Positions 7,469 to 26,553 of a stretch of 64,000 bases of DNA are shown one piece after another. A program made the translations under genes and the position numbers. The stretch is from Deltaproteobacteria bacterium (GTDB lineage: Bacteria; Myxococcota_A; UBA796; UBA2385). The notes under the pieces are model-generated. The model was not told where the DNA came from. It saw only the letters and a program-made list of their open reading frames with translations, and did not search any database. The stretch lies in contig JAGYJW010000028.1 in NCBI GenBank assembly GCA_018401435.1, positions 1 through 64,000 on the forward strand, in the 5' to 3' direction. Within the stretch, counting starts at the first letter, position 1; each line of letters starts with the position of its first letter.

Positions 7469-9112
7469 ATGACCCCAACCCGAAGCCGCCCGGATCGGCC
7501 TTGGTCCAAGAAGGCCCCCCACAACGGGCCCTGGGACGTGATCGTCATCGGGTCGGGCATGGGGGGCATGACCGCTGCCGCGCTCTTGGCCAAGCTGGGC
7601 CGCAAGGTGCTGGTGCTCGAACAGCACTATGTTCCCGGCGGCTTCACCCACACCTTCCGGCGCAAGGGCTATGTCTGGGATGTAGGGGTCCACGCGGTGG
7701 GCGAGGTCACCCCCCACAGCCTGACGGGCCGGCTGCTCGACTTTCTCACCGATGGCCGCTTGAAGTGGGCCAGCCTGGGGCCGGTCTATGACGCCTTCCA
7801 TTACCCGCCGCGCCATGCCGGCGAAGATGGGGTGGACATCGACTTTCCCGACACGCCCCAGGCCTTTCGGGACAACCTGATCGCGGCCTTTCCCGGCGAG
7901 GTGCCGGCCATCGACCGCTACCTGTTGGAGGTCAAGCGCACCGCCGGCGCCATGAAGGGCTACTACCTGGCCCGGCTCTTTGGCGGCCGCATGGGGCGCC
8001 TGGCCGACCGCTTCCTGGCGCGGGAGGCCCAGCAGCAGCTGACCCGTCACACCCGCGAAGCCATCGAGTCCTTCACCGAGGATCCGCACCTGCGCGCAGT
8101 CTTCACGGCGCAATGGGGCTATTATGGCTCGGTGCCCGCCCGGTCCTCCTGGGCCATGCAGGCCCTGGTCACCAAGCACTTCTTGCACGGTGCCTACTAC
8201 CCGGTGGGGGGGTCTGGGCGCATCGCCTTCGAGCTGCTGCGCACGGTGGCCGACGCCGGGGGCTGGACCCGCATCTGTGCCGACGTGGAGCAGATCCGGG
8301 TGGAGGGCGGCAAGACGGTGGGCGTGCGCCTGGTGGGGGGCGAGGAGCTGCACGCCCCGGTGGTGCTCAGCGCCGCGGGCATCCAATCTACGGTGGCCCG
8401 CATGCTACCGCCGGCCGTGGCCGACACCGAGTGGGCGCGGGCGGCCCGAAAGGATCCCCCCGCCTCCGCCCACCTCTGCCTCTACATCGGCTTCAAGGGC
8501 GATATCCGCGCGGCCGGGGCCAGCGCGGCCAACCAGTGGTTCTACGAGGTCTGGCAGTGGGATGGCGAGACGGATGCCTGGGATGTCTCCCAGCCCGACG
8601 CCCTGGACGATGCGCCCTGCTTGTATTGCTCCTTCCCCAGTCTCAAGGATCCCGAGCACGACCCCGGCCCCGAGCAGCGCCACACCGGCGAGGTCGTGAC
8701 CTTCGTGCCCTATGACGCCTTTTCGAAGTGGGCGGGCACCCCCTGGCGCAAGCGCGGGGCCGACTACGAGGCCTTCAAACAGAAGCTCCAAGACAAGCTG
8801 TTGGAGCAGTTTCTGCGGCGCATGCCCGGGCTGGCGCCCTTCATCGACCACGTCGAGATCTCCACGCCCATCTCGACCGAGACCTTCGTACGGCCCATGC
8901 GGGGGTCGATCTATGGCATCGAGCCCACGCCCGAGCGATTCAACAACCCGTGGTTGCGGCCGAAATCGCCCCTTCCTGGCTTGTTTTTCGGCGGAAGCGA
9001 GGTCACGACCGTCGGCGTCATCGGCGCAATGATGGGCGGGGTGCTGGGGGCGGCCGCGGTGGCGCCGGTGCCGGCCCTCAAGCTGCTTCGGGGCCTGCAG
9101 CGGCCCGTCTGA
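7469..9112 (+). CDS. FAD-dependent phytoene desaturase/RetSat-type oxidoreductase
   Basis: 547 residues. The N-terminal dinucleotide-binding motif is DVIVIGSGMGGMTAAALLAKLGRKVLVLEQ (about residues 25-54), followed by the family block HYVPGGFTHTFRRKGYVWDVGVHAVG. The C-terminus GIEPTPERFNNPWLRPKSPLPGLFFGGSEVTTVGVIGAMMGGVLGA is the second FAD-contact region of carotenoid isomerase/retinol saturase-like (CRTISO/RetSat) proteins. Such enzymes desaturate, saturate or isomerise polyenes; the substrate here is unknown and no other carotenoid genes are adjacent. The start chosen is the ATG at 7469 with GGGAG eight bases upstream; the 710-residue track ORF extends through the zinc-ribbon gene in another frame and is not real at its 5' end. 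Confidence 0.88.
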   Translation: MTPTRSRPDRPWSKKAPHNGPWDVIVIGSGMGGMTAAALLAKLGRKVLVLEQHYVPGGFTHTFRRKGYVWDVGVHAVGEVTPHSLTGRLLDFLTDGRLKWASLGPVYDAFHYPPRHAGEDGVDIDFPDTPQAFRDNLIAAFPGEVPAIDRYLLEVKRTAGAMKGYYLARLFGGRMGRLADRFLAREAQQQLTRHTREAIESFTEDPHLRAVFTAQWGYYGSVPARSSWAMQALVTKHFLHGAYYPVGGSGRIAFELLRTVADAGGWTRICADVEQIRVEGGKTVGVRLVGGEELHAPVVLSAAGIQSTVARMLPPAVADTEWARAARKDPPASAHLCLYIGFKGDIRAAGASAANQWFYEVWQWDGETDAWDVSQPDALDDAPCLYCSFPSLKDPEHDPGPEQRHTGEVVTFVPYDAFSKWAGTPWRKRGADYEAFKQKLQDKLLEQFLRRMPGLAPFIDHVEISTPISTETFVRPMRGSIYGIEPTPERFNNPWLRPKSPLPGLFFGGSEVTTVGVIGAMMGGVLGAAAVAPVPALKLLRGLQRPV

Positions 9113-9124
9113 CCCTCCAGCAGC

Positions 9125-10507
9125 TCAGGCCAGAAAGACCGGCGAGCGGCGCTGCGTCCACGCCATCGCCTCCTCCAGGCTGCGGCTGAGGCGCAGCAGG
9201 TCGAGGTCGGCGCCCGGCTTGCCCACCAAGTGCACGCCAAAGGGCAGCTGGTCGGGCCCGCCCAGGCCGCCGGGCAGGCTGGCGGCGGGCTGGCCCGAGG
9301 TGTTGATGGCGGCGGTGAAGGCGCCGATCTGGGCGGCGGCCAGGAAGCCCGCGCGGGGGTCGAGATCGGTGTAGGCGCCCACCTTGGGTGCGAATCCGGG
9401 GGTGGTGGGGCTCAACATGAAGTCGGCGTCGCCAAACCAGGTCAACACCCGGTCCTGGAAGCTGCGGGCCAGGTCGCTGGCCTGCTGGGCGCTGACTTGT
9501 CGCCCCCCCTCCCGCAGCCAGCGGGTGATGGGCTGCATGGCGGCCTCGCTGGGCGAGAAGGCGCGGCTGCTCAGGCGCTGGTAGATGGGAAGGAACTCGT
9601 CGATATCGCCGGATGGGGGCTCAATCTCATCGAGATGGTGCCCCATGTCGGCAAGCAGGCGGGCGACGGCGCGCACCCCCGCTGCGATGTCGGGGTGCAC
9701 CTCGGCCACATTGGAGCGCAGGCACACGCGGATCTTCAAGCCGGCGGGCAGGGGGGTCTGGCTGAGCGCCAGCAAGCTGCCGGGCTGGCCGGCCTGGGGG
9801 CGCCCACACAAGGCGTCCACCACCGCGATGCAGTCCTCGACCCGGTGGGCCACGGCCCCCATCACGGCCATCTTCATCTCGTCGAGGCGGCCGTAGAAGT
9901 CGGGCATGAGGCCACGGGAGGCCTTGTAGCCATAGAGGTGGCAGAAGGCCGCCGGGATGCGGATCGATCCCCCACCATCCGAGGCGTGGGCCACCGACAG
10001 CAGGCCGCCCATGGCCACCGCCGCCGCAGCACCGCCGCTGGACCCGCCGGCGCTGAAGGCCGGGTTCCAGGGATTCACCGTGGGCGGCTGCAGATCGGTC
10101 TCGACCACGGGCATCAGGCCCAGCTCTGACGTCGTGGTCTTGCCCACGAGGGTGGCCCCGGTGCGCCGGAGCAGCTTGACCGCCGGCGCGTCCACCGGCG
10201 ACCAGCCATAGCGATAGGCGCGGGACCCGGCCCGGGTGCCCGCAAAGGCGACCAGGTCGAGATCCTTGATGGCAAAAGGCACGCCGGCCAAGGCGCCGGG
10301 CAGGGGCTGACCGCGGGCCACCGCCGCGTCCACGCGGCGGGCGTGTCGCAGGGACCGTCGGCGAAAACGCTCGGCAAAGGCCTGGAGTTGAGGCTGGTGC
10401 TGGTCGATGCGCGCCTGCTGCCAGTCCAGCAGCTCCACCGCGGACAGGGTGCCGCTGCGGATCTGTGCGGCAAGCTCCAGGGCGCCAGCTTGTGCGATCT
10501 CGGTCAT
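9125..10507 (-). CDS. Amidase-signature-family hydrolase
   Basis: 460 residues from the ATG at 10507 (GAGAGG just upstream; the track begins 18 codons earlier inside the previous gene). The Ser-cisSer-Lys triad is visible: Lys in GVPFAIKDLD, Ser in the Gly/Ser-rich loop FSAGGSSGGAAAAVA, and the nucleophile Ser in ASDGGGSIRIPAAFC. Family members hydrolyse linear amides, including amidotransferase-type, fatty-amide and nylon-oligomer hydrolases; GatA is unlikely because gatB/gatC are not adjacent. It starts 11 bases after the stop of an ABC permease and is the last gene of the thrS-ABC-amidase run. Confidence 0.92.
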   Translation of the reverse strand: MTEIAQAGALELAAQIRSGTLSAVELLDWQQARIDQHQPQLQAFAERFRRRSLRHARRVDAAVARGQPLPGALAGVPFAIKDLDLVAFAGTRAGSRAYRYGWSPVDAPAVKLLRRTGATLVGKTTTSELGLMPVVETDLQPPTVNPWNPAFSAGGSSGGAAAAVAMGGLLSVAHASDGGGSIRIPAAFCHLYGYKASRGLMPDFYGRLDEMKMAVMGAVAHRVEDCIAVVDALCGRPQAGQPGSLLALSQTPLPAGLKIRVCLRSNVAEVHPDIAAGVRAVARLLADMGHHLDEIEPPSGDIDEFLPIYQRLSSRAFSPSEAAMQPITRWLREGGRQVSAQQASDLARSFQDRVLTWFGDADFMLSPTTPGFAPKVGAYTDLDPRAGFLAAAQIGAFTAAINTSGQPAASLPGGLGGPDQLPFGVHLVGKPGADLDLLRLSRSLEEAMAWTQRRSPVFLA

Positions 10508-21064: not shown

Positions 21065-21934
21065 TCAGCCCGCATCTGGCGGAGCGGACAGGTCGGGCCC
21101 ACCCCGCAGCCGGCCGCCCTTGGCCCACTCCAGCTGCCCTGCGGTCTGGATGCCGGCCTGTCGAAAGGCGCGCAACACCCGCTCGGTGACATCCGTGCCA
21201 AAGGAGGTCTCGTAGCGGCCGTCCAACACATAGGCCTTGAGCGTCAGGGCGATGGCGAAACGCTCGGCGCCATCGGGCACCGGGCCCTCGCGCACCTGCA
21301 CCGCGATGGGCTTGCGCAGGTAGACATAGCGGCTGGACGCGCAGGCCTCATAGACGATTCGCCGCCCCAGGTCGAAGTCCTCGTCGCAGCCGATGAAGAA
21401 TCGGAAGACGCACATCTGGTCCAAGGCGCCGGCGTTGGCGCTGGCCACCGTCGCCCCCAGGAAGAGGTTGTTGGGGATGCTGACCAGGTTGTCGTCCAGG
21501 GTGGCGATGCGCACCGACCGCAGGCCCATGGACACCACCTCGCCATAGGTGTCACCGAATTGCACCCGGTCACCCACATTGAATGGCCGGTCAAAGAGCA
21601 GGATGATCCCCGCGATAATCGATGCGAGGATATCCTTCAGCGCAAAGCCGATGGCCACGGCGGCGGTGCCGCTCACCGCCAGCATGGCGTCGTTGGTGAG
21701 CTCCAGCACCGTAGACAGGCTGAGCACCACCGCCACGATCAAGATGAAGAATCGGGCGAAGGCCGTGGTCTGCTTGAGCACCAGCCGGCGGTTGGTGAAG
21801 CGTTCACCCAAGGCATCGAAGGTGCCCGTGATCACCCGCAAAAGGACCACCGCCGCAAATATCCACAGGATCGCGATGGGGATGCGATCGAGGTGGATGT
21901 AGCGGAACAGCGATGCGTCGAGGGCCACGTCCAC
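21065..21934 (-). CDS. MscS-family mechanosensitive ion channel
   Basis: 289 residues. Two N-terminal helices (IPIAILWIFAAVVLLRVI; ARFFILIVAVVLSLSTVLELT) precede the pore-lining helix and beta domain: AVSGTAAVAIGFALKDILASIIAGIILLFDRPFNVGDRVQFG, the diagnostic MscS block, then GEVVSMGLRSVRIATLDDNLVSIPNN. Channels of this family open on membrane tension and release solutes after hypo-osmotic shock. Length matches the minimal MscS. The start is a GTG at 21934, two bases after the stop of the 1249-residue ATPase gene, so the two are translationally coupled and probably function together. Confidence 0.94.
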   Translation of the reverse strand: MDVALDASLFRYIHLDRIPIAILWIFAAVVLLRVITGTFDALGERFTNRRLVLKQTTAFARFFILIVAVVLSLSTVLELTNDAMLAVSGTAAVAIGFALKDILASIIAGIILLFDRPFNVGDRVQFGDTYGEVVSMGLRSVRIATLDDNLVSIPNNLFLGATVASANAGALDQMCVFRFFIGCDEDFDLGRRIVYEACASSRYVYLRKPIAVQVREGPVPDGAERFAIALTLKAYVLDGRYETSFGTDVTERVLRAFRQAGIQTAGQLEWAKGGRLRGGPDLSAPPDAG

Positions 21935-21936
21935 GG

Positions 21937-24900
21937 CTACTCCGGGTGCAGGAATTGCTTCTGGCGAAGGATGCGGTCCACGGCAGGCAGCCAGGGGTCG
22001 CGAATGAAGAAGCGGCGGCTGGCCACATCCCCCTCCAGCACGCCCAAGGCTTCGAGGTGCCGGCAGGTGGCCCGGCAGACACCGGCGGGCAGGTTCAAGG
22101 TGGACGCAAGCTGGTCCACATCCAGCCCGTCATGGATGCTGAGGGCGGTCAGCACGAAGAGGTCGCGATCCGATGCCACGTCCAGCTGCTTGGCGGCCGG
22201 CGACGAGAAGAGCGTCACCAAGGCCGTCTCTGGCCCAGCACCCTGGCGCAGGCTGTCCACCCACCAGCCCAGGGCCACCTGGGGGTTGCCCTCGCATTCG
22301 TCGGCCAGCAGCAGCCAGTAGCTGGTGCGCGCCCGCTCCAGGGCCCGCGCGAGGTCCGCGGCGCCCTCGGGCACCAGCAGCTCATAGCTGCTGTCCAGGC
22401 CCTGGCTTTGCGCCCGAGCCTCCAGCCACGCGGCCAGCTGGGGGGCATCGAGGGGCCGCAAGGACACCCGCGTGCGGAAGACATCCAGGTTGACCGCCTG
22501 GTTCACGCCTTCGAGGAACCACCAGGCCGGCCCGTGGAAGCAGCACAGCCAGAAGTGCTCTTCGGAGGTGCCATGCATGATCCCAAGCACCCGCCGCAGG
22601 GCCCGGAAGCCCCCCACCGTGCGCAAGAAGAGCCGATGGCAGTCCTCCAGGATGAGGATCATCGGGGGCCGCTTGCTCAGCTCCTCGGCCATGCGCCCGG
22701 CAGCCACGCCGATGTCCTCTCCGGGCGTGAACTGCAGCTCCAAGCGCTCGGCCAGCCAGGCCAAGGCCACATCGCAGTCCTGGGCGCCTGGCGGGGGGTC
22801 GAGCACCACCACCGGCATGCTGTCGTCCAGCCCTTGGATGAAGAGCGCGATCAGGCGCGACTTGCCCGATCCCCGGTGGCCGACGAGGGCCACCATGCCG
22901 CGCCGGTGCTCCCGGGCCCAGCCGCCATGGGCGTGGCGCACGGCGGCCAGCTCCTCCGCACAGGACAAGCCGTCGCTGCCGAGGTCGAGGAGGCGGGTGC
23001 GCTGGTCCTGGCTGAGGGGCAGGTGCTGGTGGTCGGTGTGTTGCTCCTTCAGGCGCTGCCGGGCGAGGGCGGCCCCCAGCCAGGCCAGGCCGGCCTTGGA
23101 CTCCACCAGCCGGGTGGCCAGACCCAGGATGGCCCGCACCCCCAGCACCAACAGGATGGCCGCCGTGAGCGGGGCGCGCAGCACCGGAGACGCCACCTCG
23201 CCGGTGAGCAGGCGGGTGAGCCGGTTCTCTTCGAGCTCGGTGAGGGCCTGGCGGCTGGGACCCCACCAGCGGCTGAGCAGGAGCCCCAGCAAGCCCAAAC
23301 CGCCCACCAGCAGCAGATCCCGCAGCAGGTCAGAGAGGCGATCCGCGTCCAACAGGCCAATGGCCACGAAGCGGGTGACCCGCAGCACCACCCACCAGGT
23401 CACCAGGGCGCCCACCGTGCTCAGAATGAGGTCCCGCAGCTCGGTTTCGACCCGGCGCAGGCTGGGGCGGCTGTCCGTGGTCTGGCCCAGCAGCAGGCCC
23501 ACCAGTCCCGGCACCGCCCGAAGCACCCGAGTGGCCACCCAGATGGCCAGGGGCAAGGCCAACAGGCTGGCCCGCTCGTGCAGCATCAAGAAGACCAGGT
23601 AGCCGGCCAGGGCGTCCACCAGGGCGAGCAGGACGGGGACGGCCGGCAGCACGGCGGCATTCCAGTCACCGGCCACACCCACCTGCTGAAAGGGGCCCGG
23701 CAGGCGCAGGGCCTGGGTCGCACGTCGGCCCGCCCCCATGCTGAGCATGCCCGCAGCGTGTGCAGCGAGGCCGGGCACCTGGCGGCGGATGATGCCCCAC
23801 AACACCACGATCACCAGGATCTCCGCCGAGCTTCGCAGCAGGGTGAGCAGCGCCCGCACCTGCTCTTCGAAGGAGAGGGAGCGCACATCCGTGTGCACCA
23901 GATCCCAGAACCAGCCCCGGACCCGCACCGGAATGGCCCGAAGCTCGTCGGCCAGCTCCACCAGGAAGCCGTCGGTGCTGCGTTGGATGGCGTCGGGTGC
24001 CAGGGCCTCGATGCCCCGACGCAGCAGCTTGGCCTTGGCCAGCACGGCCATCACGGCGGCCACCTCGTCCCGGCAGGCGGTGCGGCGGTCCCGGGCGCGG
24101 TCCTCCAGCTCCGCCACCCCCTGGGTCACCTGTCGGGACAGCTCGGGATCCGCCTGGGCCGCGACATCGCTGGGCACCGAGGGCAGATTCCGGGAGAGTT
24201 CCCGATCAAAGGCCACGATGCGGGCACACTCGTTGTCCCGGTTGAACAGCTCTTTGCGAAGGTCGATGACCAGGGTGTCGGCGCTGCGCCAGGTCTCGGA
24301 CAGGCGGCTGGCGCGTTCGCGGGCCAGCGGGGGCAAGGCGAGGGCCGCCTCGCGGTCCACCTGAATGCCGCCCAGGCGCTGCTCGAAGGCGACCAGCTGG
24401 CCTTCGATGCGGCTGCGCCGGCCCTGCTCGTCCTGGACCTGGCTGACGCTGGCTGCAGACACGGCGGACAAGGCGTCCGCCACCAGCTGGTCGGCCTCCT
24501 GGGCGCCGCGCCGGGCCTCTGCCACCCGCTGCTGGGCGTCGCGGGCGCGGGCCTCAGCGGCGCTCACGTCGGCATCGGTCAGGCTGCCTTGGTCCAGACC
24601 CAGCTCGGCCAGGCGGCGAGCCCGAGCCAGGCGCCGGCGGGCCAGCTCCTCGTCCTGGCTGGCCAGGTCCACACGCAACACCCGCAGGCGGGCCTGCTGG
24701 TCGACAAGGGAGGCCGGCAACAGCGGATCGGGCGCGAGGGCTGGGGCCGCCTCCAGCGCGGTCCGCCGATCGGTGGCCTCGGCCAAGGCCGCCTCGAAGG
24801 TGGCGACCGAGCCCGTCAGCTCGGCCCCTTCCACCGAGAGCAGCTCGGCCTCGTTTTCGGCGCGGCGGCGCTGCAGCTCGGCCTCTTCCTCGTCCAGATC

Positions 24901-25686
24901 GGCCTTTGCGTGCCGGGCCAGGGCCTGCATCAACGGATCGAGCTGGGCCTCGTCCAACAGCGGCGCAACGAGGCGCAGCCGGGCCAGGGCGAAGCGGGCG
25001 TCGTCGTCTTGAAGGCGGGCGAGATCGCGCTGGATCGCGTCGTCCAGGCTGGGATCCTGGGGCACCAGGGCGGCGCGTCGGGCGGCATCGAGCAGGCGGG
25101 TCAGCCGGGCCGCTTCATCCCCCAGGGCGGCATGGCGAGCGGCGCGGTCCTGCCAGCCCTCGCTCCCCTCGTTCACCGGGCCCACCGCTTCGCGGGCGGC
25201 GGCCAGCTCGGCCCACAGGGGCCACTGCCCGGCGCGGCTGAGGCCCGGCGCGCGCTGCAGGGCGGCTTGCAGGGCGACCACCAGGCGCTGTTCCAGGGCG
25301 TCGGCAGCGTCCTCGGCATCCAGCGCCGCCGCGCGGGCCTGGGCCAGCCGCGCGGAATCCGGCGGAGGCAGGTCGGCGTCGAGGGGGGCCACCCGCTCCA
25401 GGGCCCGAAGACGCGCCTTCTCGGACAGATTGTGCAGGCGGCCGGTCAAGAAGTCCGGATCGTCCAGGGGCGCGCCGGCCAGCTCCGGAAAGGCTGCAGG
25501 CAGGGCCAGCTTGCCATCAAAAGCAAGCAGCGCCGCCTTTTTTCGCGCAGTGGCGGCCTGGGTGCGGGCCTGAAGGCCCGGCAGGGTCTGCTGGTCGGCC
25601 CGCGCGACCGCCACCCCCGCCGCCTCGGGGGAGGCCGCCCGGGCGGGGCCCGCGAGGGCGAAGAGCAGGGCAAAGAGTCGAATCAA
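21937..25686 (-). CDS. Signal peptide, periplasmic coiled-coil, multi-TM and P-loop ATPase protein next to mscS
   Basis: 1249 residues, TTG start. A signal peptide (about 1-18) leads into about 600 residues of Ala/Glu/Arg-rich coiled coil (for example DLDEEEAELQRRRAENEAEL). Roughly six membrane helices follow between residues 615 and 860 (AEILVIVVLWGII; AAVLPAVPVLLALVDALAGYLVFLML; LILSTVGALVTWWVVL; LLVGGLGLLGLLLS). The cytosolic end is an ATPase: Walker A GHRGSGKS at 936-943, Walker B MILILEDCH at about 1009, and a winged-helix-like C-terminus (LDVDQLASTLNLPAGVCRATCRHLEALGVLEGD). The front resembles MscK/MscM N-terminal regions, but the MscS module is a separate downstream gene. I know no described family with this full architecture. 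Confidence 0.85.
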   Translation of the reverse strand: MIRLFALLFALAGPARAASPEAAGVAVARADQQTLPGLQARTQAATARKKAALLAFDGKLALPAAFPELAGAPLDDPDFLTGRLHNLSEKARLRALERVAPLDADLPPPDSARLAQARAAALDAEDAADALEQRLVVALQAALQRAPGLSRAGQWPLWAELAAAREAVGPVNEGSEGWQDRAARHAALGDEAARLTRLLDAARRAALVPQDPSLDDAIQRDLARLQDDDARFALARLRLVAPLLDEAQLDPLMQALARHAKADLDEEEAELQRRRAENEAELLSVEGAELTGSVATFEAALAEATDRRTALEAAPALAPDPLLPASLVDQQARLRVLRVDLASQDEELARRRLARARRLAELGLDQGSLTDADVSAAEARARDAQQRVAEARRGAQEADQLVADALSAVSAASVSQVQDEQGRRSRIEGQLVAFEQRLGGIQVDREAALALPPLARERASRLSETWRSADTLVIDLRKELFNRDNECARIVAFDRELSRNLPSVPSDVAAQADPELSRQVTQGVAELEDRARDRRTACRDEVAAVMAVLAKAKLLRRGIEALAPDAIQRSTDGFLVELADELRAIPVRVRGWFWDLVHTDVRSLSFEEQVRALLTLLRSSAEILVIVVLWGIIRRQVPGLAAHAAGMLSMGAGRRATQALRLPGPFQQVGVAGDWNAAVLPAVPVLLALVDALAGYLVFLMLHERASLLALPLAIWVATRVLRAVPGLVGLLLGQTTDSRPSLRRVETELRDLILSTVGALVTWWVVLRVTRFVAIGLLDADRLSDLLRDLLLVGGLGLLGLLLSRWWGPSRQALTELEENRLTRLLTGEVASPVLRAPLTAAILLVLGVRAILGLATRLVESKAGLAWLGAALARQRLKEQHTDHQHLPLSQDQRTRLLDLGSDGLSCAEELAAVRHAHGGWAREHRRGMVALVGHRGSGKSRLIALFIQGLDDSMPVVVLDPPPGAQDCDVALAWLAERLELQFTPGEDIGVAAGRMAEELSKRPPMILILEDCHRLFLRTVGGFRALRRVLGIMHGTSEEHFWLCCFHGPAWWFLEGVNQAVNLDVFRTRVSLRPLDAPQLAAWLEARAQSQGLDSSYELLVPEGAADLARALERARTSYWLLLADECEGNPQVALGWWVDSLRQGAGPETALVTLFSSPAAKQLDVASDRDLFVLTALSIHDGLDVDQLASTLNLPAGVCRATCRHLEALGVLEGDVASRRFFIRDPWLPAVDRILRQKQFLHPE

Positions 25687-25773
25687 GTGCGGTCCGGGGC
25701 TTCAGCCGAGGGTAGCGCACGGACCCGCCGACATCGGTCTGCTTCAATGCTGGGCGATGCACGCATCCATGAA

Positions 25774-26553
25774 CTACAGCGCCTGCTCGGAGATCGCGGC
25801 GTCGGGCTGCAGGAATTCCGTCTGCACATCCACCGCACCCCAGGCCCGGGGTGGGGGCATGGAGCGCAGGCGCGCGGTCAGGGTCTTGCCGAGGATCTGC
25901 ACCTCGTAGCCCACCAGCAGCCCGTCCAAGTTGTAGGACAGGGACACCGGACCGGTGACCGGGCGCCACTCGACCTGATCGGCGGGCACGGCCTCCTGGC
26001 CCACCTGGACCTGGCCGGCGCCCCGGGCGGCGACGCTGCCCGACAGCAGGGTGCCGGTCTCGGCCATCAGCAAGGAGGCCTGCCCCCGCTCGGGGTCCAG
26101 GAGCTTGTGGCGCACGGGATCGAAGAGGTCGAGGCCGGTGAGGTCCACGTCCATGCTGCGGTAGCTCAGCTGCTGGATGCTGCCCTTGGTGATGGCCGTC
26201 ACCAGCCAGGTGCCGCTGGGATCCTGCCGGGCCTGGATCTCCACCGTCTCGCCATTGGTGCGGGTGGAGGCCACAAAGCTCATCTTGCTGGCGGTGGCGC
26301 GGGCGTCGGCGCGGCTGTCGATGTCGTAGTCCAGGCCGGCCACCCGGGCGTCGATGCGGGTGGTGACGCGCAGCAGCCGCGTCTCGGGCGCCACCCCCGG
26401 CTGGGGCGGCAAGGTGCGGATGGCGACCTCGCGGCTGCCCACCGGCTTGCTGCCCAGGAAGATGTCATAGAGGAGAACCTGCTCTTCCTGGGCAAAGGCC
26501 GTCGATGACCCCAGCAGGGCAAGCAGCGTCAAGAGTAGATATCGAAGCAGCAT
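25774..26553 (-). CDS. Secreted beta-rich protein of unknown function (DUF6134/DUF3108-like)
   Basis: 259 residues with a clean signal peptide (MLLRYLLLTLLALLGSSTAFAQ). The mature part is a succession of beta strands beginning VLLYDIFLGSKPVGSREVAIRTL and containing SYRSMDVDLTGLDLFDPVRHKLL, a pattern like the DUF6134/DUF3108 periplasmic proteins (target-tag strand, G-x-x-V-G turn, then a W/Y-rich region). This is a resemblance only. It would sit in the periplasm. It precedes the 1249-residue ATPase gene by 87 bases on the same strand and is divergent from the radical SAM gene. Confidence 0.75.
   Translation of the reverse strand: MLLRYLLLTLLALLGSSTAFAQEEQVLLYDIFLGSKPVGSREVAIRTLPPQPGVAPETRLLRVTTRIDARVAGLDYDIDSRADARATASKMSFVASTRTNGETVEIQARQDPSGTWLVTAITKGSIQQLSYRSMDVDLTGLDLFDPVRHKLLDPERGQASLLMAETGTLLSGSVAARGAGQVQVGQEAVPADQVEWRPVTGPVSLSYNLDGLLVGYEVQILGKTLTARLRSMPPPRAWGAVDVQTEFLQPDAAISEQAL

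Follow-up and report, generated by a model that had tools for sequence, protein, structure and literature searches.

The locus analyzed here raises the question of what a large membrane protein ending in a P-loop ATPase does directly in front of a gene for a small mechanosensitive channel, and whether the two products act together. In the window, by which we mean the whole 64,000-nucleotide stretch of myxococcotal DNA that was analyzed, the large ORF (1249 aa) runs from a TTG start at 25686 to 21937 on the minus strand, and the MscS ORF (289 aa) runs on the same strand from a GTG start at 21934 to 21065, leaving 2 bp between the TAG stop codon of the first and the start of the second. The earlier note on this DNA, made from the letters alone, had read the large protein as a signal peptide, a coiled coil, about six membrane helices, and a P-loop ATPase; ORF analysis, Pfam, hydropathy, and AlphaFold modeling bear out this description, including length and strand, and the ORF coordinates confirm the 2-bp spacing that the note had given. 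The unit comprises the following features:

21937 to 25686, minus strand: large membrane protein of 1249 aa ending in a P-loop/winged-helix module, the proposed auxiliary subunit (ORF, Pfam AAA_22, homologues)
25633 to 25686, minus strand: predicted signal peptide, residues 1-18, MIRLFALLFALAGPARAA (read from sequence)
23887 to 25629, minus strand: coiled-coil region, residues ~20-600, presumed periplasmic (all-helical in AlphaFold)
23107 to 23853, minus strand: membrane region, residues ~612-860 (six hydropathy peaks and helices in the model)
22858 to 22881, minus strand: Walker A motif GHRGSGKS, residues 936-943 (sequence)
22636 to 22662, minus strand: Walker B region MILILEDCH, residues 1009-1017 (sequence)
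21967 to 22179, minus strand: predicted winged-helix domain, residues ~1170-1240 (MarR/TrmB matches in homologues; Foldseek matches to Cdc6/Orc1 and STAND proteins)
21940 to 21990, minus strand: conserved C-terminal tail of the LPAVxRxLRRxHFLH type, residues 1233-1249 (tail comparison, ~75 loci)
21065 to 21934, minus strand: minimal MscS channel of the partner subfamily, 289 aa (MS_channel_2nd, phmmer)

On the opposite strand, a 1531-codon open frame (window 21913-26508, plus strand) spans the whole unit; it is a typical effect of GC-rich coding DNA and no gene candidate.

By sequence, the partner is an ordinary MscS-type channel. It matches MS_channel_2nd (PF00924, E 3e-20), with the MS_channel beta domain present, and phmmer aligns its residues 18-263, almost end to end, to residues 31-267 of E. 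coli MscS structures, thereby covering the three membrane helices and the cytoplasmic cage. Unlike E. coli MscS or YnaI, on the other hand, it falls in a distinct subfamily that occurs in the class only alongside the large protein. A profile of this partner finds members solely in those genomes of the class that encode the large protein, all at 382 bits or more except for a fragment of 150 bits at the end of a contig (G049); class genomes without the large protein hold only general MscS proteins, at ~80 bits or less, and two draft genomes (G013 and G047) have an N-terminal fragment of the large protein and no partner-MscS match. More distant extra mscS genes were also seen near or beside the pair at some loci (L125:6830-7798; L118:646-1605 and 8923-9873; L123:6945-8327).

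The large gene and mscS belong together: across the phylum Myxococcota, they are conserved as a single unit with little space between the genes. Homologues of the large protein were found in 23 of the 39 relatives searched and occur in most families of the class. An mscS of the same subfamily lies directly 3' of 32 of the 33 testable class homologues, the window's included (71 class genomes; loci truncated at contig ends were not counted); in the loci read, it is on the same strand and its product is 44-65% identical to that of the window, the large proteins being 22-42% identical. The exception, which is also the only unlinked case of the window's type, is G017 (L073:5865-13847), where 3.5 kb, with genes for a LysR-like protein and a PhoX phosphatase, separates the large gene from the downstream mscS of the same subfamily, and where the ATPase has a broken Walker A motif. 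In a phylum sample of 379 genomes, class members included, 120 match at E 1e-8 or better. From the better matches outside the class, a non-exhaustive sample of 26 window-type proteins and 14 longer ones was fetched, and all 26 of the former are followed on the same strand by mscS, with gaps of -14 to +170 bp. A scan of named records gave four loci, in Deltaproteobacteria, proteobacterium, and Myxococcota MAGs. The gene pair that the earlier note proposed to look for in other Myxococcota is thus present there, and, rather than occurring mainly without an adjacent mscS, the pattern that would have counted against that note's reading, proteins of the window's type are encoded next to mscS at 58 of 59 testable loci across the phylum. 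The gaps are nearly all between -14 and +24 bp, in the class and outside it, which implies one transcript for the pair. A fused, one-chain ATPase-MscS was not seen at any locus, the channel being a separate gene in every one, and no ORF held both domains.

Little else around the pair is retained. At 20 other class loci, many of them with longer flanks, the window's upstream DUF6134 gene recurs at one and its radical-SAM gene at two. The FAD oxidoreductase and LON-domain genes, which the earlier note had placed in the same tight run and regarded as possible accessories, do lie in that run in the window but are found beside none of the 20 other pairs examined in the class, and they were rejected as accessories. 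A shared function is the best explanation for why only the large gene and mscS stay together despite such divergence. The trees of the two proteins are also in agreement (r = 0.81, with 34 of 53 splits in common), as would be seen if the pair were inherited vertically as one unit; ordinary vertical descent would lead to such agreement too, and on its own it does not show contact.

Within the large protein, the C-terminal P-loop module is the sole part that Pfam recognizes (AAA_22, E 2e-6). The N terminus, MIRLFALLFALAGPARA followed by AS, was judged by eye to be a putative signal peptide, and the N-terminal part is modeled as all-helical, with helices of 70-80 residues and pLDDT values of 90+ in places; a structure search with the coiled coil returned generic helical matches only, none below E 0.2, and no specific fold. 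Six hydropathy peaks (621, 692, 724, 762, 796, and 849) were counted in the membrane region. This count gives the wrong parity, as a chain with six helices starts and finishes on the same side and, with an exported N terminus, would have its P-loop ATPase outside the cytosol; because a P-loop should be cytosolic and the N terminus carries a predicted signal peptide, one helix (fifth/seventh or re-entrant) was probably missed or miscounted, and the cytosolic placement of the ATPase end is presumed.

A model of residues 560-1249, built from five sequences only and with pLDDT values of 80-90 over much of the ATPase part, found its best Foldseek matches in Cdc6/Orc1 initiators, Apaf-1, TnsC, and Avs4. 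The match to 2qby (E 4.8e-7; TMt 0.46, full-query TM-scores being low because the membrane part was included in the query) includes the helical domain and winged helix after the P-loop domain. Among 21 relatives, Pfam matches comprise AAA_16, weak nSTAND, and MarR/TrmB models, with the winged-helix models MarR_2 and TrmB matching 8 of the 21 homologues. As modeled, the ATPase end, with its P-loop, helical, and winged-helix parts, belongs to the switch ATPases of the STAND/initiator kind, in line with the P-loop ATPase and winged-helix-like end first read from the letters. It shares with Orc1/Cdc6, Apaf-1, Avs4, and TnsC the P-loop, helical domain, and winged helix in the same order, whereas here the protein that carries them crosses the membrane several times, has an exported coiled coil, and lacks a repeat sensor, and the P-loop is often degenerate among relatives. 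ATPases of the STAND/initiator type often act as nucleotide-dependent oligomers.

The same module also occurs in a second architecture. The profile that finds the window-type proteins retrieves proteins of 1400-1700 aa that share only the ATPase-winged-helix end with the window protein; in Pfam, a Na_H_Exchanger domain opens four of the five long proteins tested, giving the order Na+/H+ exchanger, coiled coil, and the same ATPase-winged-helix end. These paralogues thus start like CPA-type Na+/H+ exchangers but continue for ~900 aa more, through a coiled coil and the ATPase, and are paired with mscS, whereas the window protein has no exchanger domain. The exchanger-type genes are followed by mscS at 18 of 19 testable loci, the exception being L132, and this mscS is of a different, more divergent kind than the window-type partner. 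That the ATPase module recurs next to mscS in two different architectures makes the strongest case for a coupling between module and channel. Upstream of some exchanger-type genes lie those for TrkH or TrkA, which are potassium uptake proteins, or for another exchanger-like protein. Exchanger-type units were recorded at L063:1720-7058, L065:3901-9884, L131, and L133-L144, and the window's own genome has one with an interrupted frame (G000, contig C113, L169). The C terminus of most homologues lies no more than a few residues from a conserved motif, which reads RxLRRxHFLH in window-type proteins, and many exchanger-type proteins carry ELRRxNLI at the very C-terminal end; this motif is a possible docking tail.

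The nucleotide site itself is unevenly preserved. The window protein satisfies the Walker A pattern GxxxxGK[ST] with GHRGSGKS, and nucleotide binding is plausible for it because this motif is kept; its Walker B, ILILED, has Glu where the canonical hhhhD[DE] and most relatives have the first Asp. Counted by hand from the alignment columns of ~80 homologues, the Walker A Lys and Ser/Thr are both kept in 25 of the 26 window-type proteins outside the class and in ~11 of the 33 class members (window included), one or the other being lost in ~22 of the 33 (about two thirds); among exchanger-type proteins, Walker A is intact in 2 of 20 and degenerate in 18, mostly reading GKR. With this distribution, nucleotide switching looks ancestral and repeatedly lost. 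Since mscS is kept beside both intact and broken Walker A motifs, the module must serve some purpose that requires no hydrolysis, and, given the losses in the class and in the exchanger type, ATP turnover cannot be a requirement throughout. Within the class, the P-loop has decayed in many different ways while the neighboring mscS stayed.

The earlier note had described the unit as a split, MscK-like one. In its general plan, MscK joins an exported N-terminal helical domain of ~500 aa to additional membrane helices and the core of an MscS channel (PMC9653487). The window unit resembles MscK (KefA)/MscM in having all three parts, but MscK is one chain with 11 helices that ends in the MscS core, whereas here the channel is separate and the large chain, with about six helices, has the P-loop/winged-helix module at its end. 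As a statement of descent, the label does not hold and was rejected: neither MscS_porin (PF12795) nor MscS_TM (PF12794) matches the window's large protein at E<1 in Pfam, neither is among the 25 most frequent Pfam matches for 21 homologues, and hhalign against E. coli MscK, as a single sequence, gives a probability of 0.2% and an E-value of 0.3. The likeness is an analogy in plan only, and the unit may work like a split MscK while not being one by descent on present evidence.

Our preferred explanation, to which we assign a probability of roughly 0.55, is that the 1249-aa protein serves the MscS encoded behind it as a dedicated auxiliary subunit with a regulatory role and was ancestrally a nucleotide switch. 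The exported coiled coil and extra membrane helices would surround the MscS heptamer like a collar, in the role of MscK's periplasmic domain and outer helices, and the cytosolic P-loop/helical/winged-helix module would assemble near the cytoplasmic cage of the channel and set how easily it opens. This module would ancestrally have been driven by nucleotide, and in many class members, where the site has decayed, it would stay as a structural or oligomerization part. Only tentatively would we go further and propose a new kind of gated channel, in which a ring-forming STAND-type nucleotide switch on a multi-pass protein controls a separate MscS heptamer and the same switch, joined in the second architecture to a Na+/H+ exchanger that has an MscS of its own, links ion exchange, turgor release, and nucleotide state in one complex.

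Other explanations share part of this evidence. The earlier note favored an ATP- or nucleotide-gated channel, in which the MscS pore would be opened or closed directly when the large protein binds or hydrolyzes nucleotide. The intact GHRGSGKS of the window, the intact site in nearly all sampled window-type proteins outside the class, and the switch-ATPase fold agree with this proposal; as a general mechanism, however, it is weakened by the two thirds of the class and nearly all exchanger-type proteins that lack the Walker A Lys or Ser/Thr and keep mscS, and by the Glu in the window's Walker B. We regard it as doubtful, and it is the repeated loss of the nucleotide site with mscS kept that leads us to rate an auxiliary subunit above it. 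The large protein could instead be an assembly, folding, or positioning factor with no gating role, its coil tying the channel to the cell envelope, as strict pairing with one MscS subfamily and a long periplasmic-type coiled coil might suggest. To our knowledge, however, E. coli MscS assembles with no dedicated helper, and the MscS proteins paired with this ATPase module differ considerably between its two architectures, making such a factor unlikely.

It is quite unlikely, too, that the protein is a membrane-tethered signal transducer, in which the channel or membrane region would sense swelling and the winged helix would relay the signal, e.g. to transcription: the MarR/TrmB-like matches to the C-terminal winged helix in homologues and the DNA-binding Cdc6/Orc1 and TnsC among the nearest folds speak for it, but winged helices in STAND proteins are usually structural, and no conserved target gene or neighbor was found at the loci compared. 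That two osmotic-stress proteins are merely co-transcribed, with no physical contact, would account for the short gaps; we consider this improbable, because the pairing holds at 22-42% identity across the phylum with all other synteny lost and recurs in the second architecture. Finally, the STAND-like fold and the Avs4 match could indicate anti-phage defense, with a STAND sensor and a membrane channel as effector. This is very improbable, given the lack of any match to the known defense protein models in PADLOC, the mostly single-copy occurrence and mirrored trees, which suggest vertical inheritance and not patchy mobile carriage, the degenerate P-loops, and the TrkH/TrkA potassium transport genes adjoining the second architecture.

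Gating of MscS channels is generally attributed to membrane tension, either by itself or together with small ligands, and where known variants of the family have additional parts, these are fused to the channel in one chain; we know of no separate, strictly paired switch-ATPase partner of MscS. A prior description of the pair was not found in the open-licence literature searched, which included a study of M. xanthus transporters. The pairing of the ATPase with mscS suggests that such channels have a regulator or partner subunit not described before. If this is true, it would be the first dedicated auxiliary subunit for the MscS family, separate, paired with its channel phylum-wide, and built on a switch-ATPase fold. 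It would then be testable whether the state of the cytosol sets the opening threshold of these emergency valves, and the repeated decay of the nucleotide site would provide a natural experiment on the need for hydrolysis.
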